Shown piece by piece: positions 2,647 through 25,309 of a DNA stretch of 35,688 bases. Source of the stretch: Sulfurovaceae bacterium (GTDB taxonomy: Bacteria > Campylobacterota > Campylobacteria > Campylobacterales > Sulfurovaceae); the NCBI GenBank assembly GCA_016744805.1, contig JADGDQ010000018.1, positions 1 through 35,688 on the forward strand, in the 5' to 3' direction. Every line of letters begins with the position of its first letter. Within the stretch, counting starts at the first letter, position 1. The notes beneath the pieces were generated by a model, which saw only the letters and a program-made list of their open reading frames with translations, did no database searches and was not told the origin of the DNA. Both the position numbers and the translations under genes were made by a program.

Positions 2647-4065
2647 GTGCAAAACCTCTATGAGTCATGCTACCATTTAGACAAACGGTGCTACCAAGAG
2701 TATAATCTAACAGAAGATATTTTGATGGAACATGCCTCTTTGGGTATGGCAAAGTACATTCAAGCCAATTTTGCACCAGACTCTACACTGCTTATTGTAG
2801 CAGGAGTGGGCAATAATGGAGCAGATGGTATTGTACTCGCTCGACAGCTCTTTGGAGAGTATAGAGTTAGACTCTATCTCCCTTTTGGGGTCAAGTCTAC
2901 TATGGCAAAAACACAATACCAAAGGATAAAACAGCTAGGGGTTACCGTTGTAGATACTCTTATAAAATCAGATATTATTGTAGATGCACTCTTTGGGGCT
3001 GGGCTAAGTCGTGGGCTTGATACTCCTACACAGACTCTTATCCAAGAGATAAACCATCTCCAAGGCTTCAAGATAGCATGTGATACTCCTACAGGCATAA
3101 GCCAAGATGGCACTCCTCTACCTCTAGCATTTCAAGCAGATATAACTATCACGATGGGTGCCCTCAAAGAGTCTCTGTATGCAGATAGTGCCAAAGAGTT
3201 TGTAGGGGAGATACTCTGTGTAGATTTGGGAGTGGCTCGTAAGCTCTATGAACTCCCCACAGAGACCTATCTCTTGGAGACCAAAGATATAAAACTCCCT
3301 AGTCGGATAGACCAAACCACACATAAAGGTTCTTTTGGTCATTTAGCTGTTTTTTCTGGTAACAAAGAGGGGGCTAGCATCCTTTCGGCTATGGCATCCT
3401 TAAGGTTTGGAGTTGGTCTAACCACTATAGTAGGCGAACCATCAAGCCAGCTCCCTTACTCTATTATGCAAGATAGCAAACTTCCTTATAATACTACAGC
3501 TATAGCTTTTGGTATGGGATTTGGTACAGAGTATGATAACTATAGAGTACAAAGTATACTCAATAGTAATATACCCATTATTTTGGATGCAGATATTTTT
3601 TATACTCCACTCATCAAAGATTTTCTACAACAAACACAAAGAGCCATCGTTCTTACACCTCATCCCAAAGAGTTTGTATCTTTGTGGAAAATACTTTTTG
3701 ATAAAGAGATAACAGTAAGCTTTCTCCAAGCAAATCGCCTAAAGTTTGTTCGCCAATTTTGTAGCCATTATCCAGAGGTAACACTGATATTAAAAGGGGC
3801 AAACAGTATTATTGCACAAGATAAAAGATGCTACATCAACCCCTTAGGCTCATCAAAACTAAGCAAAGGTGGCAGTGGTGATGTGCTAAGTGGTTTGATT
3901 GGTGCTTTATTAGCTCAGGGGTATAGCTCGATAGATTCTGCTATCTCTGCTTCACTCGCACTCACTCTAGCCACACAACAATACAGAGGAAGCTCCTACG
4001 CTATGCTTCCAACAGATGTCATAAAAGAGATAGAAAAGCTTGAAGAGAGAGACCTTTATAGTTGA
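2647..4065 (+). CDS. nnr: Bifunctional NAD(P)H-hydrate epimerase/ADP-dependent dehydratase
   Basis: This enzyme repairs hydrated NADH and NADPH: the N-terminal YjeF domain epimerises the hydrate and the C-terminal kinase-fold domain dehydrates it with ADP. The epimerase half (about 1-210) shows GVGNNGADG (53-61), VDALFGAGLSRGL and DTPTGIS. The dehydratase half (about 220-472) shows KGSFGHLAVFSG, LTPHPKEF and the anion-hole motif KGGSGDVLSG (407-416). At 472 residues it has normal fusion length. The start is GTG, chosen because AGGAG lies seven bases upstream and the N-terminus aligns with the family. It is last in the nagA operon and ends eight bases from the convergent DprA-like gene, with no room for a conventional terminator. 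Confidence 0.94.
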   Translation: MQNLYESCYHLDKRCYQEYNLTEDILMEHASLGMAKYIQANFAPDSTLLIVAGVGNNGADGIVLARQLFGEYRVRLYLPFGVKSTMAKTQYQRIKQLGVTVVDTLIKSDIIVDALFGAGLSRGLDTPTQTLIQEINHLQGFKIACDTPTGISQDGTPLPLAFQADITITMGALKESLYADSAKEFVGEILCVDLGVARKLYELPTETYLLETKDIKLPSRIDQTTHKGSFGHLAVFSGNKEGASILSAMASLRFGVGLTTIVGEPSSQLPYSIMQDSKLPYNTTAIAFGMGFGTEYDNYRVQSILNSNIPIILDADIFYTPLIKDFLQQTQRAIVLTPHPKEFVSLWKILFDKEITVSFLQANRLKFVRQFCSHYPEVTLILKGANSIIAQDKRCYINPLGSSKLSKGGSGDVLSGLIGALLAQGYSSIDSAISASLALTLATQQYRGSSYAMLPTDVIKEIEKLEERDLYS

Positions 4066-4073
4066 GTCTATGA

Positions 4074-5063
4074 CTACTCTACTAATTGATACCTCTTTAC
4101 TCTACCCTCTAATCTTTTAATAATTTTTCTCTCTTGGGCTTCTTCTAACCAAGTAGTAATTTGTGAGGATTTTAGACTAAAAAGTATCTCTAGCTCTTTT
4201 GGTTTAAAAGTATCATTTGGAATATATTGCAACTGAGATATAAAAAAGTTAAAAAATAGATCAGTAAACTCTTGTGTATCATTATCAAAGAGAGATAACT
4301 GTATGGGTGGATTTTTACTCTTTGGAACTACACGCACCATAGAAGTTGCATGTGCTTGAATATATCTACTAGTTTCTAACGCATTATTACTACTCAATAC
4401 AGATTCAGGATAATAAGAGCTTACTAAGACCAAATCATTTTGTATCAAAGCTTCTCTATATGCACCATTAAGAGATTTTTGCAAAAGATTATTGGCTACA
4501 AATACTATACTATTGCCTCCATTTTCTAATGCACCTTTGATAGCTGACTTATTTACCTCATCTGTTACTAATATATATCCATCATTTGCTATCTCTCTAC
4601 CTGCTTTCCAAAATAGACTACTTATCTCTTGGGAACTCTCTTGTATACTCTCTACTCCTAGAGATTGCTTATTTAATAGTTTAGGATTTCCAATACCATA
4701 CAAAAGAGCTGGAGAGATATTTTGAAGTCTTTTCTTTAGTTGTTGGGGATAGAGTGGAGATGTACGAGTAATTACCCAAATACCTGCTCTTTGCCATTTC
4801 TCCATAGCCAAGGCTAATGCTCCACCTCTTTCTAGGAGTGCTTGTAGCCTTGTGATTGTAATGCTCTCATCACTCCAATCTTTAAGTAATGTTTCAATAC
4901 CCTCTTCTAAGAGACTTTCAGGTTTTAGATTATGTTTATGTAACCATTGTGCAAAACCTCCCCACTCCTCTGCACTCAATGGGATAATATTTTTAACTCT
5001 ATTTTCAGAAAAATAACTTGTGAGCAGGAGTATGGCTTGTGTTGAGGGAGTTAGCATATTCAT
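4074..5063 (-). CDS. Degenerate DprA/Smf-like protein with clamp-binding motif
   Basis: This 329-residue protein has a DprA-type Rossmann core at about 95-250: SPLYPQQLKKRL and PALLYGIGNPKLL lead into it, followed by ALENGGNSIVFVANNLLQ and LVLVSSYYPES. The motifs that normally define DprA are altered. The GSR strand is replaced by SLGVES (134-139), and the GGARGID segment by LVTDEVNKSAI (165-175). QLSLF at 255-259 is a consensus beta-sliding-clamp binding pentapeptide, between the core and a C-terminal helical part (about 285-329) resembling a winged helix. It is last in a three-gene operon, starting three bases after the RecQ-PRTase stop. Nucleotide or ssDNA binding by the standard pocket is doubtful. 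It is not the housekeeping transformation DprA; a defence or genome-maintenance role is inferred from the operon. Confidence 0.75.
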   Translation of the reverse strand: MNMLTPSTQAILLLTSYFSENRVKNIIPLSAEEWGGFAQWLHKHNLKPESLLEEGIETLLKDWSDESITITRLQALLERGGALALAMEKWQRAGIWVITRTSPLYPQQLKKRLQNISPALLYGIGNPKLLNKQSLGVESIQESSQEISSLFWKAGREIANDGYILVTDEVNKSAIKGALENGGNSIVFVANNLLQKSLNGAYREALIQNDLVLVSSYYPESVLSSNNALETSRYIQAHATSMVRVVPKSKNPPIQLSLFDNDTQEFTDLFFNFFISQLQYIPNDTFKPKELEILFSLKSSQITTWLEEAQERKIIKRLEGRVKRYQLVE

Positions 5064-5066
5064 CTT

Positions 5067-7154
5067 TTATCCATTGGCTGTTGAGCTTAATACCACAGGA
5101 AAAACTTCTCCTGAGCCTTTTTGACGCAATAGAGCAGAGAGAACCGCAACTGTCCAACCCGAATCAATTATATCATCTATAAGCAATACAGGTTCATCTG
5201 CTATATCTACTATCTCAAAGGCTCCATCTAAATTATGGCATTGATAAAATCTATTATGCATCATTTTTTGTGGTTGATTGGATTTACACTTTATAATTGC
5301 CTCTCTAAAAGGAAGTCCCATTTTTGTTGCTACTCTTTGTGCAAAGCTTGGAACTAATTGTGTATGAGTCAAAGAGGACACGCAAGTTATCCATTTTGGC
5401 ATAGGAGTAGGATTCCACTCTCGTATCATATCTACAAAAGCATCTACTAGCTCATCATCAAAATAGCTATTATGTTTATTATCTGCAACAGTTTTTCCCC
5501 ATCCTGCATCCATCCATTTGGACAAAACTCTTCCCTCTTCGTGTCGTAACTCTATAGGAATGGTACTTTTGAATCCATATTGAATAAGAGCATCTTTTGG
5601 AAACTGTTTTTTTACCTTTATGGGAATGGCGTGGTGTTTTAAAAATTTAGAAGCTTTTATTCCTAAATCATGCGAAAAAGAGCTACTCATACTATTAGAT
5701 GGATTACAATTTGCACACTTGCCACACTCTTTGGTATCTGTATCATTTAAAGTCTCTCTCAAATAACGCATAAGGCACTCTTTAGACTCCATATAAGTTT
5801 CAATATCTTTAAACTCTTCTTCTCTTTGATTGGTTAAAAAAGCTATTTTTTCTCTATCCATACTATAGTTAATAGGTGTTCTATACCATTTGCTTTTTTC
5901 TTTAAGAATAGGAGATGGACTTTGAATAGCAAGATACTTTAAAACTTTTTCAATTTGTCCATATCTAAGATTTATTAATCCCTCAATTTCTCTCATAGAG
6001 AGTCCGCTACTCTTTTCCAAAATATTTAAAACTTCAAACACATGTTCTTCTGATGGAAATGCAGAATTTATAAAAAATGCTTGAATATCAGAATCTTCAT
6101 AACCTGATAATAAAATACCTCTTGCCTCCAAAATAGCACGACCTGCACGACCAACTTGTTGATAGTATGCTACAATAGAAGCAGGAAGTTGATAATGGAT
6201 AACAAAACCTAAATCAGGCTTATCATATCCCATACCCAAAGCAGTTGTAGCAACAAGAGCTTTTATTTGATTATTCATAAGTTGCTCTTCTAAATGTTGA
6301 CGGTAACTATTGCTATCTTCAAAATCTTGATGTGTTACATTTCCATGATATGCTGAGGCTGATATATTATTCTCTTGTAACCATCTTGCTACAATTTCCG
6401 CATCTCTAATAGTTGAAGTATAGATGATACCTGTACCCTCTATACTATTAATATACTCAATAATCCAAGCCAATCTTGAAGCTTGACTTGAAAGCTTAAT
6501 ATTTTGTAAAATCAAACTATCTCTCACAAGAGTACCTCTAATAGTCTCAATTCCACCAATTTGTCTCTCTATATCATCAACTACACGGTTATTAGCTGTA
6601 GCTGTGGTTGCAAGGATAGGTATCGTAGGGGGCATCTGTTGTAAGATTCGTGTAATTCTTTGATAATCAGGTCTAAAATCATGTCCCCAGTCAGATATGC
6701 AGTGTGCTTCATCTACGACTAAAAGCCCTATTTTATCAGATATAGGCGTTAATATAGTCTCCATAAAATTCTCATTTGCCAACCGCTCTGGAGATATAAG
6801 AAGTGCATCAACTTCATTATCTAAGAGTTGTCCAGAGATAAGTTGCCACTCTTTACTATTTGTTGAATTAATAGTAACCGCATTAATCCCTAAACGCTCT
6901 GCAGAAACAATCTGATTTCTCATAAGAGCTAAAAGTGGAGAGATAATTACTGTCACTCCAAAACCTTTATCTCTCAAAGCCCTAGTTGCGATAAAGTAAA
7001 CACTGCTTTTCCCCCATCCTGTACGCTCAACAACAAGCATTCTTTTACGATGATTTACCAAAGCATCAATTGCTTCCCATTGGTCTTTATGAAATTGAGC
7101 ATTCAAATTATTAATAGAAGTTCTAAGAAGTTGTAATCCCTCATTTTGAGTCAT
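5067..7154 (-). CDS. RecQ-family helicase fused to a phosphoribosyltransferase
   Basis: The 695-residue protein joins a superfamily 2 DNA helicase to a C-terminal PRTase. Helicase motifs are complete: Walker A TGWGKSS (45-51), SPLLALMRNQI (72-82), LVVDEAHCISDWGHDF (145-160), ATTATA (182-187), YHGNVT, TTALGMGYDKPD (303-314) and QQVGRAGRA (332-340). A RecQ zinc-binding set follows: C460, C477, C480, C483. The C-terminal third has the type I PRTase PRPP loop VLLIDDIIDSGWT (656-668), as in ComF and adenine PRTase. No HRDC domain is visible. The fusion suggests DNA unwinding coupled to PRPP or nucleotide chemistry, but the PRTase substrate is unknown. It is the middle gene of the operon, 15 bases after the SLOG gene. 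The helicase call is firm and the PRTase call nearly so. Confidence 0.92.
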   Translation of the reverse strand: MTQNEGLQLLRTSINNLNAQFHKDQWEAIDALVNHRKRMLVVERTGWGKSSVYFIATRALRDKGFGVTVIISPLLALMRNQIVSAERLGINAVTINSTNSKEWQLISGQLLDNEVDALLISPERLANENFMETILTPISDKIGLLVVDEAHCISDWGHDFRPDYQRITRILQQMPPTIPILATTATANNRVVDDIERQIGGIETIRGTLVRDSLILQNIKLSSQASRLAWIIEYINSIEGTGIIYTSTIRDAEIVARWLQENNISASAYHGNVTHQDFEDSNSYRQHLEEQLMNNQIKALVATTALGMGYDKPDLGFVIHYQLPASIVAYYQQVGRAGRAILEARGILLSGYEDSDIQAFFINSAFPSEEHVFEVLNILEKSSGLSMREIEGLINLRYGQIEKVLKYLAIQSPSPILKEKSKWYRTPINYSMDREKIAFLTNQREEEFKDIETYMESKECLMRYLRETLNDTDTKECGKCANCNPSNSMSSSFSHDLGIKASKFLKHHAIPIKVKKQFPKDALIQYGFKSTIPIELRHEEGRVLSKWMDAGWGKTVADNKHNSYFDDELVDAFVDMIREWNPTPMPKWITCVSSLTHTQLVPSFAQRVATKMGLPFREAIIKCKSNQPQKMMHNRFYQCHNLDGAFEIVDIADEPVLLIDDIIDSGWTVAVLSALLRQKGSGEVFPVVLSSTANG

Positions 7155-7169
7155 GTTTGTCCTTTATAA

Positions 7170-7934
7170 TTAAAAATCAAATAAAGCTTGTTGGGGCTGA
7201 GAAGATAATTCGTTATTTTCTATCCAAGTAATAAAATTATTATTAAACTTAACCCCACTAGGTTTTCCTCTATATGTTTCTACAATAAATAGTTCAGGAT
7301 TTTTACTTGTTGGTTGATAGATTTTTCCCTCTTTGGTTAAAAGATTTTGAGTAAGTAAAAATTTATTTAAATCTTGTGAACGCTTATATCTTTTAATTCC
7401 ATTATCTTGTAAATATCTGATAATTTCCAATGTAGTATAACCATTTTTTTCTCTAAAAATAGACTCAATTTGAGCTATTGTTACTTTTGTAGCTTCAAGA
7501 TAATTATGAATATCTTGATAATAGACTTTTACCTGTTTATTACCTCTTAAAGCTCTAATAATATTAGCATAGCTTCCTCTGCTCATCCCATCCCAAACTA
7601 CTAAAGCAAAAATAGACTCTTTGTTCATTGCTTTATCTTTATATGTTTGTCGCTCTCTTTGAGCTCTTATCTCTTGGGGAACAAAAATATTTTTCTCTTT
7701 AAATTGTTGATTGGCTTTATATCTAGGTGTTGAAGTGATGGTATATATAATTACATTAAAATAATTCTCTTTATTACATAACTCTTGTACTAAAGTATCA
7801 ACTCCTAAGGCATCTCCAACTAGAATAGTCATTCCCTTTCGTATTATTGTTTTAATACTCTTTATTACTTCTATAGGAAGTTTTTTAATAGCAATAGAAC
7901 CTGAAATAAAAACAGAATTTTTTATCAAATTCAT
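7170..7934 (-). CDS. SLOG/YspA-like Rossmann protein, first gene of RecQ operon
   Basis: The 254-residue protein starts with a SLOG-type nucleotide-binding fold (about 5-145): VFISGSIAI (8-16), the glycine-aspartate loop ILVGDALGVDTLVQE (37-51), and ALVVWDGMSRGSYANI (110-125), typical of proteins that sense or process nucleotides or their ligands. Residues 150-254 hold a small helical region that may be a winged helix, ending in QQALFDF. QQALF (248-252) fits the degenerate beta-clamp pentapeptide Qxx(L/M)F. A strong AAGGAG site (7941-7946) and an extended -10 box precede it. The intact GD..GVD loop contrasts with the eroded loops of the DprA-like partner. Exact function unknown. Confidence 0.75.
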   Translation of the reverse strand: MNLIKNSVFISGSIAIKKLPIEVIKSIKTIIRKGMTILVGDALGVDTLVQELCNKENYFNVIIYTITSTPRYKANQQFKEKNIFVPQEIRAQRERQTYKDKAMNKESIFALVVWDGMSRGSYANIIRALRGNKQVKVYYQDIHNYLEATKVTIAQIESIFREKNGYTTLEIIRYLQDNGIKRYKRSQDLNKFLLTQNLLTKEGKIYQPTSKNPELFIVETYRGKPSGVKFNNNFITWIENNELSSQPQQALFDF

Positions 7935-7961
7935 CAGATGCTCCTTCTATAATATGAGATG

Positions 7962-7970
7962 ATTATAACA
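7962..7970 (-). promoter_or_regulatory. Extended -10 promoter of the SLOG/RecQ/DprA-like operon
   Basis: Read on the minus strand this is TGTTATAAT, a perfect extended -10, with the operon's first ATG 27 bases downstream and AAGGAG in between. It is the only clear promoter seen for the three genes. No inverted operator was noticed around it. Confidence 0.6.
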
Positions 7971-8051
7971 TATTTTATCTCTCTCTTATCTACTTTCAAA
8001 GCTACCAAATAGTATTATCTGAAAGCATTTTAATAAAAGAGGTAGAAAGAG

Positions 8052-8603
8052 TTGAAGAAAATAGCAGTACTATTTAGTGGCACAGGAAGTAACCTTGCGT
8101 ATCTCCTCAAAAATCTCCATAAACAAAACAGTTTTGAAATTGTAGTTGCATTAAGTAACAAAAAAGATGCTGGGGGTATAGCATTTGCAAAAGAGTATAG
8201 TATACCCTTAGAGATTATCCCATCCAAAGAGTTTACTCATAGAGAAGCTTTTGATACAAAAGTTGTAGAGGTATTAGAGGAGTACTCTCCTGACCTTACC
8301 GTCTTGGCAGGCTTTATGCGTATACTCACGCCTACCTTTACAGAACAGATAAGAGCTATCAATCTCCACCCATCACTCCTTCCTAGACATAAAGGTCTCC
8401 TAGCAATAGAGCGAAGCTATGAAGATAATTATCCTACTGCTGGGGTGAGTGTGCATTGGGTCACGAGTGAGCTTGATGGTGGTGAGATTATTCTCCAAAA
8501 AGAGATTCAAAAAGCAGGTCTAAGCTTTGAAGAGTACGAAGAACAGATTAAAGTTATTGAAAAGGTAGCACTCTTAGAAGCTATAGAGAGTATATTTGAT
8601 TAA
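8052..8603 (+). CDS. purN: Phosphoribosylglycinamide formyltransferase (folate-dependent)
   Basis: PurN transfers a formyl group from 10-formyltetrahydrofolate to GAR, the third step of purine synthesis. The 183-residue protein shows the nucleotide loop SGTGSN (9-14) and the catalytic set N104 and H106 in AINLHPSLLP plus D142 in SELDGGEII, matching E. coli N106, H108 and D144. The start is TTG, chosen because the family N-terminus MKKIAVLFSGTGSN begins there and AGAGG lies about ten bases upstream. It stands alone, divergent from the SLOG operon and overlapping the 3' end of truC by four bases. The formate-dependent alternative purT is also in this window. Confidence 0.93.
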   Translation: MKKIAVLFSGTGSNLAYLLKNLHKQNSFEIVVALSNKKDAGGIAFAKEYSIPLEIIPSKEFTHREAFDTKVVEVLEEYSPDLTVLAGFMRILTPTFTEQIRAINLHPSLLPRHKGLLAIERSYEDNYPTAGVSVHWVTSELDGGEIILQKEIQKAGLSFEEYEEQIKVIEKVALLEAIESIFD

Positions 8604-19264: not shown

Positions 19265-20326
19265 TTAAAACCTCTCCAATATCGTATACGCTGTATTTCG
19301 CTTAGCAGGAGATTCACCCACATCTCGTATCAGCTCTACCATCTCATCTTGGTTCATCTGATTGTGTGCTCCTGCTGCGGAGACGACATTTTCTTCCATC
19401 ATCGTAGAGCCTAGGTCATTAGCTCCAAAGAGAAGTGCCATCTGCCCTATGTAGCTTCCTTGTGTGACCCAAGAACTTTGGATATTTGGGATATTATCAA
19501 AAAAGAGTCTGGATACTGCAAGGAGTCGTAGATAACGATTAGATGATTGCTTTTGTATCTGAGGATACTCTTCCATAAGTTGGGTATTATCCCCTTGGAA
19601 TGACCACATGATATAGGCTCTAAATCCTCCAAACTCATCTTGGAGTTCTCTAGCATAATTCCAATGCTCTACAATCTCACGGTTGGTCTCTACTGTTCCA
19701 TACATCATAGTCACAGTTGATTTGATACCAAGTTTATGAGCCTCTCTATGGACTTCTAGCCAAGTATCTTTATCTAGTTTTTTGGGTGCGATGATGTCAC
19801 GCACTCTATCACTTAATATCTCTGCCCCAGCTCCAGGTATAGAAGCGAGTCCTTTGGCATAGAGCCTTTGTAAAACTTCTTTGATAGAAATTTTTGATCG
19901 CGTTGCAATATAGTCTATTTCAATAGCAGAGAAACCATGAATAGTTATCTCTGGATACTTTTGGTGAATATGATCGACTAACTCTTCATACCACTCTATC
20001 TCTAGCTTGGGATGTACCCCTCCTTGGAAGAGTATCTGCGTTCCACCAATGGCAAGAAGTTCATCTATCTTTTGGTCTATCTCCTCGTAGGTAAGGATAT
20101 AGGCATCATCATTTTTTTCATGACGATAAAAAGCACAAAACTTACAATCTACCCAGCAGACATTAGTATAGTTTATATTTCTATCTACCACAAAAGTTGT
20201 CACACTTTTAGGATGTAACTCTCTTTTGCGAGCAAGTGCCATCTGTCCTAACTCTTTAAGGTCAGCATTCTCTATAAGTGTAACTGCCTCGTCTATGGTC
20301 ATTCGTTTTCTTACAGTAGCTGTCAT
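19265..20326 (-). CDS. mqnC: Cyclic dehypoxanthine futalosine synthase
   Basis: MqnC is a radical SAM enzyme that closes the ring of dehypoxanthine futalosine in the futalosine route to menaquinone, the respiratory quinone of Campylobacterota. From the ATG at 20326 it has 353 residues, with the 4Fe-4S cluster motif CWVDCKFC (C57, C61, C64) followed by AFYR, then GGTQILFQGGVHP and SIPGAGAEILSD. This start is chosen because AAGGAAA lies just upstream and the family begins there; an in-frame start at 20389 would overlap the DUF4435 gene. That gene ends ten bases upstream, so mqnC may be expressed from its operon. Confidence 0.93.
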   Translation of the reverse strand: MTATVRKRMTIDEAVTLIENADLKELGQMALARKRELHPKSVTTFVVDRNINYTNVCWVDCKFCAFYRHEKNDDAYILTYEEIDQKIDELLAIGGTQILFQGGVHPKLEIEWYEELVDHIHQKYPEITIHGFSAIEIDYIATRSKISIKEVLQRLYAKGLASIPGAGAEILSDRVRDIIAPKKLDKDTWLEVHREAHKLGIKSTVTMMYGTVETNREIVEHWNYARELQDEFGGFRAYIMWSFQGDNTQLMEEYPQIQKQSSNRYLRLLAVSRLFFDNIPNIQSSWVTQGSYIGQMALLFGANDLGSTMMEENVVSAAGAHNQMNQDEMVELIRDVGESPAKRNTAYTILERF

Positions 20327-20336
20327 TCTTTTCCTT

Positions 20337-21188
20337 TCAATCAAACAATCTATGATTATTAGTGTTAGACCAATTTTGTAGATTTTCATATAAATTTGTA
20401 TTTTGGAAATACTCCACCCTATAAGATAGCCTTAAAGCTTCTTCAATTTTTTTCTGATTTATATTACTAACAGTAAAATAGTTTGCAATCAGCATTGTTA
20501 AGTCATGTCCATTACAAATTTGTAATCTATCACTAGAAGTCGCTTTAAGTAATGTTATATTTTCTTCTACATTTTCCTCATTACTTTTAATTTGAGTATA
20601 AAGTAATCTTAGATATTCACTCTTATCTAAATAAACTTGGCAATTACTACAAGAGATAAGAGAATTTAAATTTATTCTCTTAAAATCAAATAAGCCTTTT
20701 CCTCTGCTCACTCTTATTTTATCACTATACCATCTTATATAACCAATTTCAATAGCAAGAGTATATATTTGACTTTTTAAATTATCCAAAAGCTTGGAAT
20801 AGCACTCTTGTGATGTAAACTCACAAATAACAGAGATTAAAGCACCTGACTCAACCATCTCTACTTCCATGTCATGATAATCTGTAATAAAAAGATTTTG
20901 AGGATAATTAACCTCATTTAAGTGGTCAAAATCAGCATCTTTTATAGCAATGAGTTCTCTATAGCCTTCATCTTCTAAAATACGAAGAGCTTCCATCAGT
21001 TTATCTTTGCCCTTTAGAGCAGTTGTATCTGTGTATATATGCGAAAATATATTTCTAAATAGTTTTATATCTGTTTTACCTTCTAATAAAATAAAAACCT
21101 TACCTCTATTTTCTGGATGTCTAATAGAGAGTCTGATTTCGGAAAGCTTAATGCCTAGTTCAGAAGATACTTCTTGTAGACTATTCAA
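20337..21188 (-). CDS. DUF4435 TOPRIM-like protein, AriB-like (PARIS)
   Basis: The 283-residue protein has the TOPRIM-like signature of DUF4435: FILLEGKTDIKLF with E36, AIKDADFDHL with D84 and D86, and ITDYHDMEVEM (101-111). In the PARIS antiphage system the DUF4435 protein AriB is the nuclease effector held by the ATPase AriA and released on phage infection. Gene order here is ATPase first, then this gene with an eight-base overlap, as expected for translational coupling. A pair of cysteines in SCSNC (about 179-183) is a further feature. The PARIS assignment rests on domain pairing, not alignment; related OLD-like ATPase/nuclease systems are the alternative. Confidence 0.78.
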   Translation of the reverse strand: MNSLQEVSSELGIKLSEIRLSIRHPENRGKVFILLEGKTDIKLFRNIFSHIYTDTTALKGKDKLMEALRILEDEGYRELIAIKDADFDHLNEVNYPQNLFITDYHDMEVEMVESGALISVICEFTSQECYSKLLDNLKSQIYTLAIEIGYIRWYSDKIRVSRGKGLFDFKRINLNSLISCSNCQVYLDKSEYLRLLYTQIKSNEENVEENITLLKATSSDRLQICNGHDLTMLIANYFTVSNINQKKIEEALRLSYRVEYFQNTNLYENLQNWSNTNNHRLFD

Positions 21189-22509
21189 TTTTAGAATCCT
21201 CTAAATTAACCGTCAAATCCCACCTCTCATTAATAATTTGAGGTGAATGTGTTGCTATCACTATATCTATATTTTTAAGCTTGATTATCTCTTTTATATC
21301 ATTCAAAAACTCTTTTTGCCATACAACATGCAGAGATATTTCAGGCTCATCAATTAATACTAGAGAATTTTCAGTTGCTTTAAAAAGTAGTTCAAACAAC
21401 AAAACAACTTCATGTTGTTCTCCTGAGGAGAGTTCTGTTAACTCTAGTATAGAGCCATTTTGTGATTTAAAAACAAAACCCTTCTCTTTATCTATCTCTA
21501 TACTCTTAAAATTAAATCGTCTCTCATTAAGTATCTTTGTAAAAAGTTCAATTTTATTTACTAGTGAACTAAAGACAGCTAATTTCTCTTTGCTATCAGC
21601 TATATAGAGGGATAAAACTCTTGTATCACTATCATTAATTTCATCTTCTTGAAAAAATGTATCTTCATCCAATTTTAGCAAACCATATTCAGAAGTTTTT
21701 TTCCTCTCTTCTTGCAAAGATTGCAATTTATTTCTCAACACTTCAGCATCAATATCTAAAGTATTCCCTTGAAAAAGTCTTTTTGGAAAACTACTATCAA
21801 GAGATTGCGTTACCTGTGCATACTCACCAATAGTCTTCTTCATTTTTTGACTTAACTCTTGGGAATATTTCTCTATAGTATCGGTAATCACAACCTCTCT
21901 TCTAAACTTATCAGAAATTGGCTCTCTTAATATTAACCTCTGCTCTTGGATAAAATACACTTCAAGTTCATTAATAATAAAGATAAATGCTTCAGGAATA
22001 TCAATATCAAATCGTTTCATAATATGCTCAGGAATATAATCATTATATTGATATATGGCCTCTTCAAAAGATAAAACTTCGTCTGTTAGTTTATTTCTCC
22101 ATTCATTAGGACTTGTTCTTTCAAGAGAGTTTGGCATATACTCTTCTATCTGACGACTAGGCATACCTCTTCTTAGTTGAGAAACTAACTCTTTAGATGG
22201 ATATTCAAAAGAATCCATATCTTTGTTATTTTCTTTAAGAATAAATTTAATAAGAGTACTATCACTATTAACTTCTTTTATAATTTCTATACTATTCTTA
22301 TTATCAAATGTAAAAATAATTTTTTCAAAAACTAATCTTGTGAAAAAGTTAAATCTCCTATTAAATAAATTATATATAATTTTTAGAGTCATTGTTTTAC
22401 CGTAACCATTAGGAGCAGTAATTATAGTAATCCGCTCATCTTGATTATAGTTAATCTCATGATTAAATATATCAAATAATTTATCTATTTTTAGATCTAA
22501 CAGTTTCAT
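21181..22509 (-). CDS. SMC/ABC-type AAA ATPase, AriA-like (PARIS)
   Basis: The 442-residue ATPase carries ABC-class motifs: Walker A APNGYGKTMT (32-41), signature ELSSGEQHE (359-367), Walker B SLVLIDEPEISLH (382-394) and the switch histidine in IATHSPQ (H421). The middle (about 180-340) is helical and charged. This AAA_15/AAA_21 type matches AriA of PARIS, which assembles into a sensor that holds the DUF4435 toxin. Its ribosome site AAGGAT lies in the last codons of nusB, and it starts five bases after the nusB stop, so it is probably transcribed with the ribH-nusB operon. No mobile element flanks it. Confidence 0.82.
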   Translation of the reverse strand: MKLLDLKIDKLFDIFNHEINYNQDERITIITAPNGYGKTMTLKIIYNLFNRRFNFFTRLVFEKIIFTFDNKNSIEIIKEVNSDSTLIKFILKENNKDMDSFEYPSKELVSQLRRGMPSRQIEEYMPNSLERTSPNEWRNKLTDEVLSFEEAIYQYNDYIPEHIMKRFDIDIPEAFIFIINELEVYFIQEQRLILREPISDKFRREVVITDTIEKYSQELSQKMKKTIGEYAQVTQSLDSSFPKRLFQGNTLDIDAEVLRNKLQSLQEERKKTSEYGLLKLDEDTFFQEDEINDSDTRVLSLYIADSKEKLAVFSSLVNKIELFTKILNERRFNFKSIEIDKEKGFVFKSQNGSILELTELSSGEQHEVVLLFELLFKATENSLVLIDEPEISLHVVWQKEFLNDIKEIIKLKNIDIVIATHSPQIINERWDLTVNLEDSKIE

Positions 22510-23498: not shown

Positions 23499-24197
23499 TT
23501 ATCTACTGAAAAATTCATCAAGTGTATCAATAAGTTCCTTTAAACTTGGTACTTTTTCTTTGGTGTGAAGATATAAATTTTCATAATCTATAGCTTCTAC
23601 GGTTCTTCTTATCTGTTTTTCACTTTTTGTCCAATGTTTATTTATGAGTTGATAAATATTATTGAGTGTATTTGCTGGATGGGATATCTCTCTTTCAAAA
23701 TTTTCTATATTTTGTAAATCAATGACACTACTAATCTCTTCTAGTGTTAAGTGCTTATCTAGATTTTGATAATGATTAAACTCCGCTATAAACCAAGTTT
23801 CAATCTCCATAACAGCTAAAATCATTTTTGTATAGATTAAATCTTCATTTACCAATAGAGCTTTTAATCTATTTTGAATTCTCTCTTTCTTCTCATAACC
23901 TATGGGATAGAGATCCCTCAATCCAATGATCGTAAAAAAATCTTTTGAGAGTAGTGCTTGATAGTTCTCTTTTATGTCGCTCAATACTTTAGCATCATTA
24001 CAAGAGTTATAGATTCTAATTTTGTATTGGCTATCTAAATCATTAAACTCTTCAATAAATGGACATCTATTTTGTCCTTGCAAAACTCTTTTTTGAATTT
24101 CGACATTATAAATACCTGCCATCTCTTCAACTAGTTTTTCAATAAATATAAGTTCTGTTTTTCCCTCTACAAATATGGCTAATTTCTTGATAGACAC
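23499..24197 (-). CDS. TOPRIM-domain protein, RloB/DUF4276-like
   Basis: The 232-residue protein opens with a TOPRIM-like strand and glutamate, [17 protein letters not shown] (E11). Further on come [10 protein letters not shown] (D95) and [13 protein letters not shown] (E131, E133), resembling DUF4276/RloB-type proteins. Such proteins are probably nucleases and are encoded next to SMC-like ATPases. It overlaps the upstream ATPase by one base (start and stop share position 24197). It shares only the general TOPRIM pattern with the DUF4435 protein encoded at 20337-21188. The ribH start is 22 bases downstream. Activity is inferred from the fold; a DxD pair is not obvious. Confidence 0.7.
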
Positions 24198-25309
24198 TAG
24201 TCACTCCAAACACAGTTCTTATAATATTCTCCAGAGAAAAAATCAAAATTATTAAGCCCAATATCCTCAAAGTTTTCAAAGTTTTTTGGATGAGTCTTTT
24301 GGCTATAAAAATCAATCTTGCCTTTTTCATCTTTGTCTACAATAATCCAATAGTCCAAAGGAACATTATTCATTACTAATCTATCATTTGTGGTCATAAT
24401 AAGTTGCATTTTATCTTTTTGTTTTTCTGCATTTTTTATAAGATAGTTAATAAGACTATCAGCTCTCTCAAAATCAAGCCCCTCACCAATATCATCTATT
24501 AAAATAGTTATATTATCTTCTACAGTAAAATCTAAATAAGTTATTTGTATAATTAAAGACAATGCCCTAAACATCCCTTGAGAGATTTCTCTTTGAAATA
24601 TCTCTTTGCCATTCTCTTTAATATAGAGTGCATATACTTGATAAGCAATATCAGCAGTATAAATATCTTCTATATCATATCCTATGCTATTAAAGGTTTC
24701 TATAATCTTATTTTTAAATGGCTCTTTGAACTCTTTTAATCCTTCTCTAAATTTATATACTACTTGCTTGTCATCATAAGTAAATATTTTATTTTTTATA
24801 TCATAACCAAGTGGTTGACCCAAACTATCTCCAAATTTAAATAGATAAAAAGAGCTTATCCAATTGAAAATAGGTTCTAATAATTTATGCTGTATCTTAT
24901 CTCTCTTATTAGCTAATAGTATTTTGTTATTTTCTATTCCAAAATCTAGTTTTGAGTCTTGAGAATCGTACTTTATTTGACCTTTACCACTTTTATTTCT
25001 TGAAAAATAGAGAGTACCATCAATTTTTAACTCTTCGAAAAGTACTATAGAATTATCTATTTTTAAATCATATATATACTCTGTTTTATTTTCAAGTAAT
25101 TTAATATTCCAATTATATATTGAAGAGTCATTTTCAATCTTTCCTTCTCTCAAAAAATCTATTACTATAGAAATAGAGTTCAATATTCTTGTTTTTCCAG
25201 AAGCATTTTTACCTGCAATGAGATTAATTTTAGAAAAATCAAAATTATCTATTTTCCACTTGTTGTTCTCAAAGTATTCTTTTGAAAAACTAATAGATTC
25301 TGCATACAT
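24197..25309 (-). CDS. AAA ATPase paired with TOPRIM protein, second system
   Basis: The 370-residue ATPase has Walker A NLIAGKNASGKTRI (29-42) and Walker B ITILIDDIGEGLDFERA (267-283), where the usual DE pair is DD (D272, D273). EISQGMFRALSL (241-252) stands in for the ABC signature, and MTTNDRLVMN (305-314) is a sensor-like strand. This is an AAA_15/AAA_21 relative clearly different from the ATPase at 21181-22509. It begins 12 bases after the kdsA stop with AAGGAA between, and its stop overlaps the start of the TOPRIM gene by one base. The pair resembles RloA/RloB- or OLD/Gabija-like defence modules, without matching one exactly by eye. Confidence 0.75.
   Translation of the reverse strand: MYAESISFSKEYFENNKWKIDNFDFSKINLIAGKNASGKTRILNSISIVIDFLREGKIENDSSIYNWNIKLLENKTEYIYDLKIDNSIVLFEELKIDGTLYFSRNKSGKGQIKYDSQDSKLDFGIENNKILLANKRDKIQHKLLEPIFNWISSFYLFKFGDSLGQPLGYDIKNKIFTYDDKQVVYKFREGLKEFKEPFKNKIIETFNSIGYDIEDIYTADIAYQVYALYIKENGKEIFQREISQGMFRALSLIIQITYLDFTVEDNITILIDDIGEGLDFERADSLINYLIKNAEKQKDKMQLIMTTNDRLVMNNVPLDYWIIVDKDEKGKIDFYSQKTHPKNFENFEDIGLNNFDFFSGEYYKNCVWSD

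Follow-up and report, generated by a model that had tools for sequence, protein, structure and literature searches.

The window analyzed here is contig JADGDQ010000018.1 of Sulfurovaceae bacterium assembly GCA_016744805.1 (35,688 nucleotides), and its positions 4,074 to 7,934 carry an operon of three minus-strand genes. The second and third genes encode PsyrT and PsyrA, the toxin and antitoxin of a described system (PsyrTA, also called RqlHI), and the core of the operon is thus not new. What is new is an additional first gene, whose SLOG-type product ends in a tail resembling clamp-binding motifs. On balance, we favor the reading that the operon is a three-component PsyrTA/RqlHI variant in which the separate SLOG protein supplies sensing or gating, and we hold it at slightly better than even. 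RqlHI and PsyrTA are treated as one system, identified from their common architecture and names. The features that carry the argument are listed below (PRTase, phosphoribosyltransferase; PRPP, phosphoribosyl pyrophosphate; pLDDT, predicted local distance difference test).

7170-7934, minus strand: SLOG gene (gene 1), 254 amino acids; open reading frame (ORF) list, motifs and AlphaFold2 fold
7173-7193, minus strand: C-terminal QQALFDF of the SLOG protein, clamp-binding-like tail of low pLDDT; sequence and AlphaFold2
5067-7154, minus strand: psyrT/rqlH toxin gene (gene 2), RecQ-like helicase with C-terminal PRTase, 695 amino acids; PADLOC PsyrT
5151-5186, minus strand: PRPP-binding loop LLIDDIIDSGWT of the PsyrT PRTase domain, the domain needed for RqlH toxicity (PMC4670107); motif check
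4074-5063, minus strand: psyrA/rqlI gene (gene 3), conserved N-terminal domain, degenerate DprA/SLOG domain and short C-terminal domain, 329 amino acids; PADLOC PsyrA and alignments
4326-4661, minus strand: PsyrA residues 135-246, SLOG domain without GSR, GG/AA-R/K-G-I/V-D, R/NNKYIY and the subsequent GGTW segment; alignments and pN/pS
4287-4301, minus strand: QLSLF in PsyrA, identical to the consensus QL[S/D]LF; motif check

Genes 2 and 3 encode PsyrT and PsyrA

The three ORFs are tightly spaced, as the first-pass annotation of the sequence had described them, with gaps of 15 bp between the SLOG and RecQ-PRTase genes and 3 bp between the RecQ-PRTase and DprA-like genes. Gene 2 has Pfam matches to DEAD and Helicase_C and a weak one to Pribosyltran, and it matches PADLOC PsyrT over essentially its full length (E 2.3e-295, residues 3 to 694 of 695). 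The Walker A motif (GWGKS), the DEAH box, RecQ motif VI, and the PRPP loop (LLIDDIIDSGWT) are all intact, which bears out the annotated fusion of a RecQ helicase with a C-terminal PRTase. Gene 3, annotated as DprA/Smf-like, indeed matches DNA_processg_A (E 5.5e-11) and is PADLOC PsyrA (E 3.3e-78), the latter match covering only profile positions 1 to 247 of 398. Thus, a RecQ-like helicase core and a C-terminal PRTase are combined in a single protein, and the DprA-like PsyrA gene follows directly downstream on the same strand, the arrangement of PsyrTA/RqlHI. Unlike the known pair, the window has a SLOG gene upstream and a shorter PsyrA that has lost its own SLOG motifs.

Escherichia coli RqlH is toxic via its PRTase domain and is counteracted by RqlI, which binds it directly and of which residues 1 to 320 suffice for neutralization (PMC4670107). 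Rousset et al. grouped shosTA, syrTA, and rqlHI as systems whose antitoxins are DprA-like (PMC9122126). The annotation had proposed a DNA-centered defense or surveillance system of no worked-out mechanism; it was right as to the kind of system but missed the identity of genes 2 and 3, and the roles of the RqlHI toxin and antitoxin had in fact been described (PMC4670107), and a mechanism has been reported for the related ShosTA (PMC12593503).

Predicted fold of the SLOG protein

Gene 1 has no Pfam family above the cut-off and no PADLOC match, including none to ShosA. Its AlphaFold2 model, built from 25 relatives, has a mean pLDDT of 95.2 and consists of a SLOG core (residues 1 to 140), a winged-helix-like domain (approximately residues 150 to 230), and a disordered tail, the domain names being read off the secondary structure. 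The motifs FISGS, GDALGVD, and VVWDGMSRGS are intact. Because the best PDB matches of the model are Helicobacter pylori DprA (E 2.5e-4), followed by ShosA (8zva) and YpsA, the annotated SLOG assignment of gene 1 is supported at the level of the predicted fold. The likeness to DprA of natural transformation lies in the SLOG core fold and, for PsyrA, in DNA_processg_A; however, neither window protein is the housekeeping DprA, which is encoded elsewhere in the genome (172 bits). ShosTA likewise pairs a PRTase with a SLOG/DprA-fold protein, and a review citing Pu et al. (2025) reports that ShosT, with PRTase and pyrophosphatase activities, perturbs purine metabolism and that ShosA binds DNA (PMC12593503). 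In contrast to ShosTA, the window carries its PRTase as part of a helicase fusion, and gene 3 matches PsyrA rather than ShosA, so the resemblance of gene 1 to ShosA is one of fold only.

A widespread PRTase-SLOG two-gene module

Relatives of the SLOG protein were collected at 80 loci from GTDB species genomes, 76 of which have a clear SLOG ORF. A stand-alone PRTase ORF lies directly upstream on the same strand at no fewer than 55 of these 76 loci in many phyla, a lower bound, since the ORF picker sometimes took an antisense ORF. The two genes overlap at 29 loci (by 4 bases at 18 and by 1 base at 11), and a PsyrT helicase is present within none of the 76 loci. The partners comprise two PRTase types: type 1 matches the PsyrT PRTase domain (24 to 78 bits) and the ShosT model (22 to 48 bits), and profile comparison links type 2 to type 1 (probability 94.7, E 6e-8). 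PADLOC lacks a model of the SLOG protein in such pairs, and no description of the pair was found in the literature searched, although a 2015 survey of SLOG proteins could mention it. Gene 1 was probably borrowed from this family of toxin partners, which is widespread, distinct from PsyrTA, and as yet without a name. The window SLOG protein belongs to the same family and shares its clamp-like tails; unlike in the module, no stand-alone PRTase is present, only 117 bp separating the SLOG gene from purN upstream, and the SLOG gene precedes psyrT instead.

The pairing of SLOG homologues with PRTases, the presence of DNPH1 and RCL among the weaker fold matches, and the proposal of Russell and Mulvey that RqlI resolves a modified nucleotide would agree with a different function, in which the SLOG protein would act enzymatically to undo or detoxify what the PRTase makes, as LOG/DNPH1 phosphoribohydrolases split nucleoside monophosphates, and the two form an enzyme pair rather than a toxin and a sensor. 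We regard this as improbable: the top fold match is the DNA-binding DprA with ShosA close behind, and no LOG-type PGGxGT-E motif was seen in the SLOG sequence by eye, the level at which its active-site residues were probed.

The PRTase-SLOG pair is also present on Klebsiella plasmids, including L197 and L198, where the annotation goes no further than ComF family or amidophosphoribosyltransferase for the PRTase and hypothetical protein for its partner; on L198, the pair has a type II restriction enzyme and a cytosine methyltransferase as neighbors. A search of phage records gave no match to the SLOG protein. On six viral contigs (L158, L160, L161, L162, L165, and L166), SLOG domains are fused to proteins with HYGVLGMKWG-like repeats and adjoin apparent phage structural genes; SLOG domains may thus travel in phage particle proteins.

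Recurrence of the trio and decay of the PsyrA SLOG domain

Among the 299 genomes of the order, PsyrT and the SLOG family are each found in ten or eleven, and the window is their sole overlap. With its cut-off of E 1e-100, the PsyrT search also picked up numerous ordinary RecQ helicases, matching only approximately profile positions 1 to 360; a genome was therefore counted as having PsyrT only if its match exceeded 435 bits, which was true of ten. A wider PsyrA search recovered a second trio in genome G302, from another genus of the same family, in which the SLOG, PsyrT, and PsyrA genes keep their order, are spaced by 21 and 3 bp, and have different neighbors. The trio is found in only 2 of the 175 genomes of the family, and because it recurs in another genus at a different locus, it is a real unit. 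It is not a general set: PsyrTA is usually a pair, and SLOG usually accompanies a stand-alone PRTase. The SLOG proteins of the window and G302 are sisters (support 100/100), nested in a group otherwise partnered with stand-alone PRTases; a single recruitment of the SLOG gene would therefore account for both trios, judging from the sequence tree.

The window PsyrA has undergone an in-frame loss of about 54 residues or more, including the GGTW segment, with no frameshift. Recognizable SLOG motifs are kept by every other PsyrA compared and are lost in that of the window alone. Intact SLOG/DprA motifs and a full C-terminal part are usual in PsyrA but not part of the system definition; their loss marks the window as a PsyrTA variant, and the identity of toxin and partner stands. 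When the window was compared with G302, the ratio of nonsynonymous to synonymous change (pN/pS) was 0.81 for the PsyrA SLOG domain, 0.36 and 0.46 for the N- and C-terminal domains of PsyrA, 0.24 for PsyrT, and 0.38 for the SLOG gene, values that come from one genome pair with synonymous changes near saturation in parts, so that the contrast between domains counts rather than the absolute figures. Given this contrast, the psyrA gene is retained and only its SLOG domain is relaxed. Since the G302 PsyrA retains the motifs, the SLOG gene most simply joined the operon before they were lost from the window PsyrA.

The separate occurrence of SLOG and PsyrTA nearly everywhere might instead point to an ordinary PsyrTA pair beside a passenger, that is, an orphan of a PRTase-SLOG module that lost its PRTase and plays no PsyrTA role. 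No SLOG gene was found at the other PsyrTA loci sampled (9 of 369 gammaproteobacterial genomes, several plasmids, and one viral contig), which also fits a passenger; a scan of viral contigs returned no PsyrT relative. This explanation appears unlikely, though less so than an enzyme pair. It is weakened by the second trio, with its identical order and similar spacing at an unrelated locus in another genus, and the SLOG gene is intact, first in the operon, and under purifying selection by the measure given above.

Clamp-binding-like tails

The beta-clamp-binding consensus is QL[S/D]LF (PMC3716654). The window SLOG protein ends in QQALFDF, a segment of low pLDDT that contains Q-x-x-[LM]-F and is predicted to be exposed, and that of G302 ends in EQSLFDF; both carry extra residues beyond LF, a less canonical form. 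Among SLOG homologues made nonredundant at 70%, Q-x-x-[LM]-F occurs within the last 14 residues in 27 of 77 (in 21 of the 27 at the exact C terminus), compared with none of 806 control ORFs, which were the other ORFs of at least 100 amino acids from the same loci (Fisher P = 2e-31, a value that overstates independence because of shared ancestry). These counts use the strict pattern; an earlier, wider one (with Q.[LM]F.F) had been shaped after the window tail was known. The tails are spread over Bacillota, Pseudomonadota, Spirochaetota, and Campylobacterota, and the literature searched contained nothing on clamp tails in defense systems. In PsyrA proteins, Q-x-x-[LM]-[FL] follows the DprA domain in 9 of 18, versus 1.85 expected from shuffles. 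The tail motif suggests that the SLOG protein may bind the replication clamp.

Proposed mechanism and points against it

In the three-component reading, the N-terminal part of PsyrA would still restrain the PRTase toxin, and the SLOG protein, recruited from a PRTase-SLOG module, would assume the sensing role of the dead SLOG domain of PsyrA. It may bind nucleotide or DNA via its core and winged helix and dock on the replication clamp via its tail. Disturbance of replication by invading DNA would then lift the restraint on PsyrT, and the freed PRTase would act on PRPP or nucleotides, so that growth stops in an abortive defense. The data establish the gene set, its recurrence, the loss of the domain, and the enrichment of the motif, whereas clamp docking, phage defense by the trio, the signal sensed, and the abortive outcome are put forward here as inferences.

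More tentatively, and with odds somewhat below even, PRTase toxins with SLOG/DprA-fold partners (PsyrTA, ShosTA, and the PRTase-SLOG modules) may form one replisome-tethered class, in which the SLOG partner docks on the sliding clamp via a QxxLF tail and frees the PRTase once replication is disrupted or hijacked. If so, the window shows an exchange of parts, the sensing SLOG domain of PsyrA having been lost and supplied by a separate protein. The trio can be viewed as a natural domain-swap experiment, in which a separate SLOG protein entered the operon and the PsyrA SLOG domain subsequently decayed. Clamp-like tails that recur in several phyla within the PRTase-partner family connect three kinds of system treated as separate and point to the replication clamp as a directly testable sensing target of PsyrTA-type systems.

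Several observations weigh against the proposed mechanism. The known trios number just two, and both come from a single bacterial family. The SLOG domain of the G302 PsyrA is intact, and therefore the SLOG gene did not start as a replacement. The AlphaFold2 model of PsyrA, built from two sequences, has a mean pLDDT of 35. The G302 PsyrA has KSLSLF rather than QxxLF, and most other campylobacterotal PsyrA proteins are without the motif. RqlI lacking its C-terminal 80 residues still neutralizes (PMC4670107), and any clamp motif in that part would thus have a role in sensing or placement rather than in neutralization. Finally, one study could not detect phage protection by one native E. coli PsyrTA in its assay (PMC12409345).

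Insertion site, promoter, and neighboring genes

The location of the operon is defined by the following features.

4066-8051, strand not applicable: inserted cassette bounded by nnr and purN; nnr-purN adjacency in three same-genus genomes
2647-4065, plus strand: flanking gene nnr
8052-8603, plus strand: flanking gene purN
7962-7970, minus strand: extended -10 element TGTTATAAT 5' of the operon, a perfect TGnTATAAT; scan not above chance

In the three same-genus genomes with nnr and purN on one contig (L172, L173, and L175), the two genes are adjacent; therefore, the three-gene operon is an insertion, and the locus is not a conserved housekeeping one. Other PsyrTA loci lie inside type I restriction-modification operons (L141, L143, L149, and L187) or a BREX cluster (L151), and the outcome that the first-pass annotation had named as refuting, a fixed housekeeping locus with no link to defense islands, did not arise. 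The empty site, these neighbors of the relatives, and two more inserted ATPase gene pairs in the window together indicate variable, defense-rich DNA. DprA, ComF, and RecQ are competence and repair folds, a link discussed by Russell and Mulvey, and the operon might accordingly be read as one for competence or DNA repair, with RecQ, the ComF-like PRTase, and the DprA-like proteins processing incoming or damaged DNA. We consider this very unlikely: the genome encodes its own DprA, the locus is a variable insertion whose relatives sit inside restriction-modification and BREX clusters, and a PsyrT homologue is toxic without its partner (PMC4670107).

The annotated extended -10 promoter is present as a perfect TGnTATAAT, but promoter-like matches in the region are no commoner than in shuffles (12 versus 17.9); the element at 7962-7970 is therefore a candidate operon promoter by virtue of its position and sequence only.

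The two ATPase gene pairs are also on the minus strand. One (20337-21188 and 21181-22509) consists of an AAA_15/AAA_21 ATPase and a small partner gene with weak, mixed PADLOC matches (AriA, PtuA), and it is inserted between nusB and the gene at 19265-20389, flanks whose order is contiguous in five same-genus genomes (L206 to L210). The other (23499-24197 and 24197-25309) consists of a DUF4276/TOPRIM-like gene and an AAA_21 ATPase matching PADLOC AbiLi (83 bits), and it is inserted between ribH and kdsA; in G433 (L203), a genome of the same genus, an ATPase 75% identical to it lies beside kdsA, with a more divergent partner.

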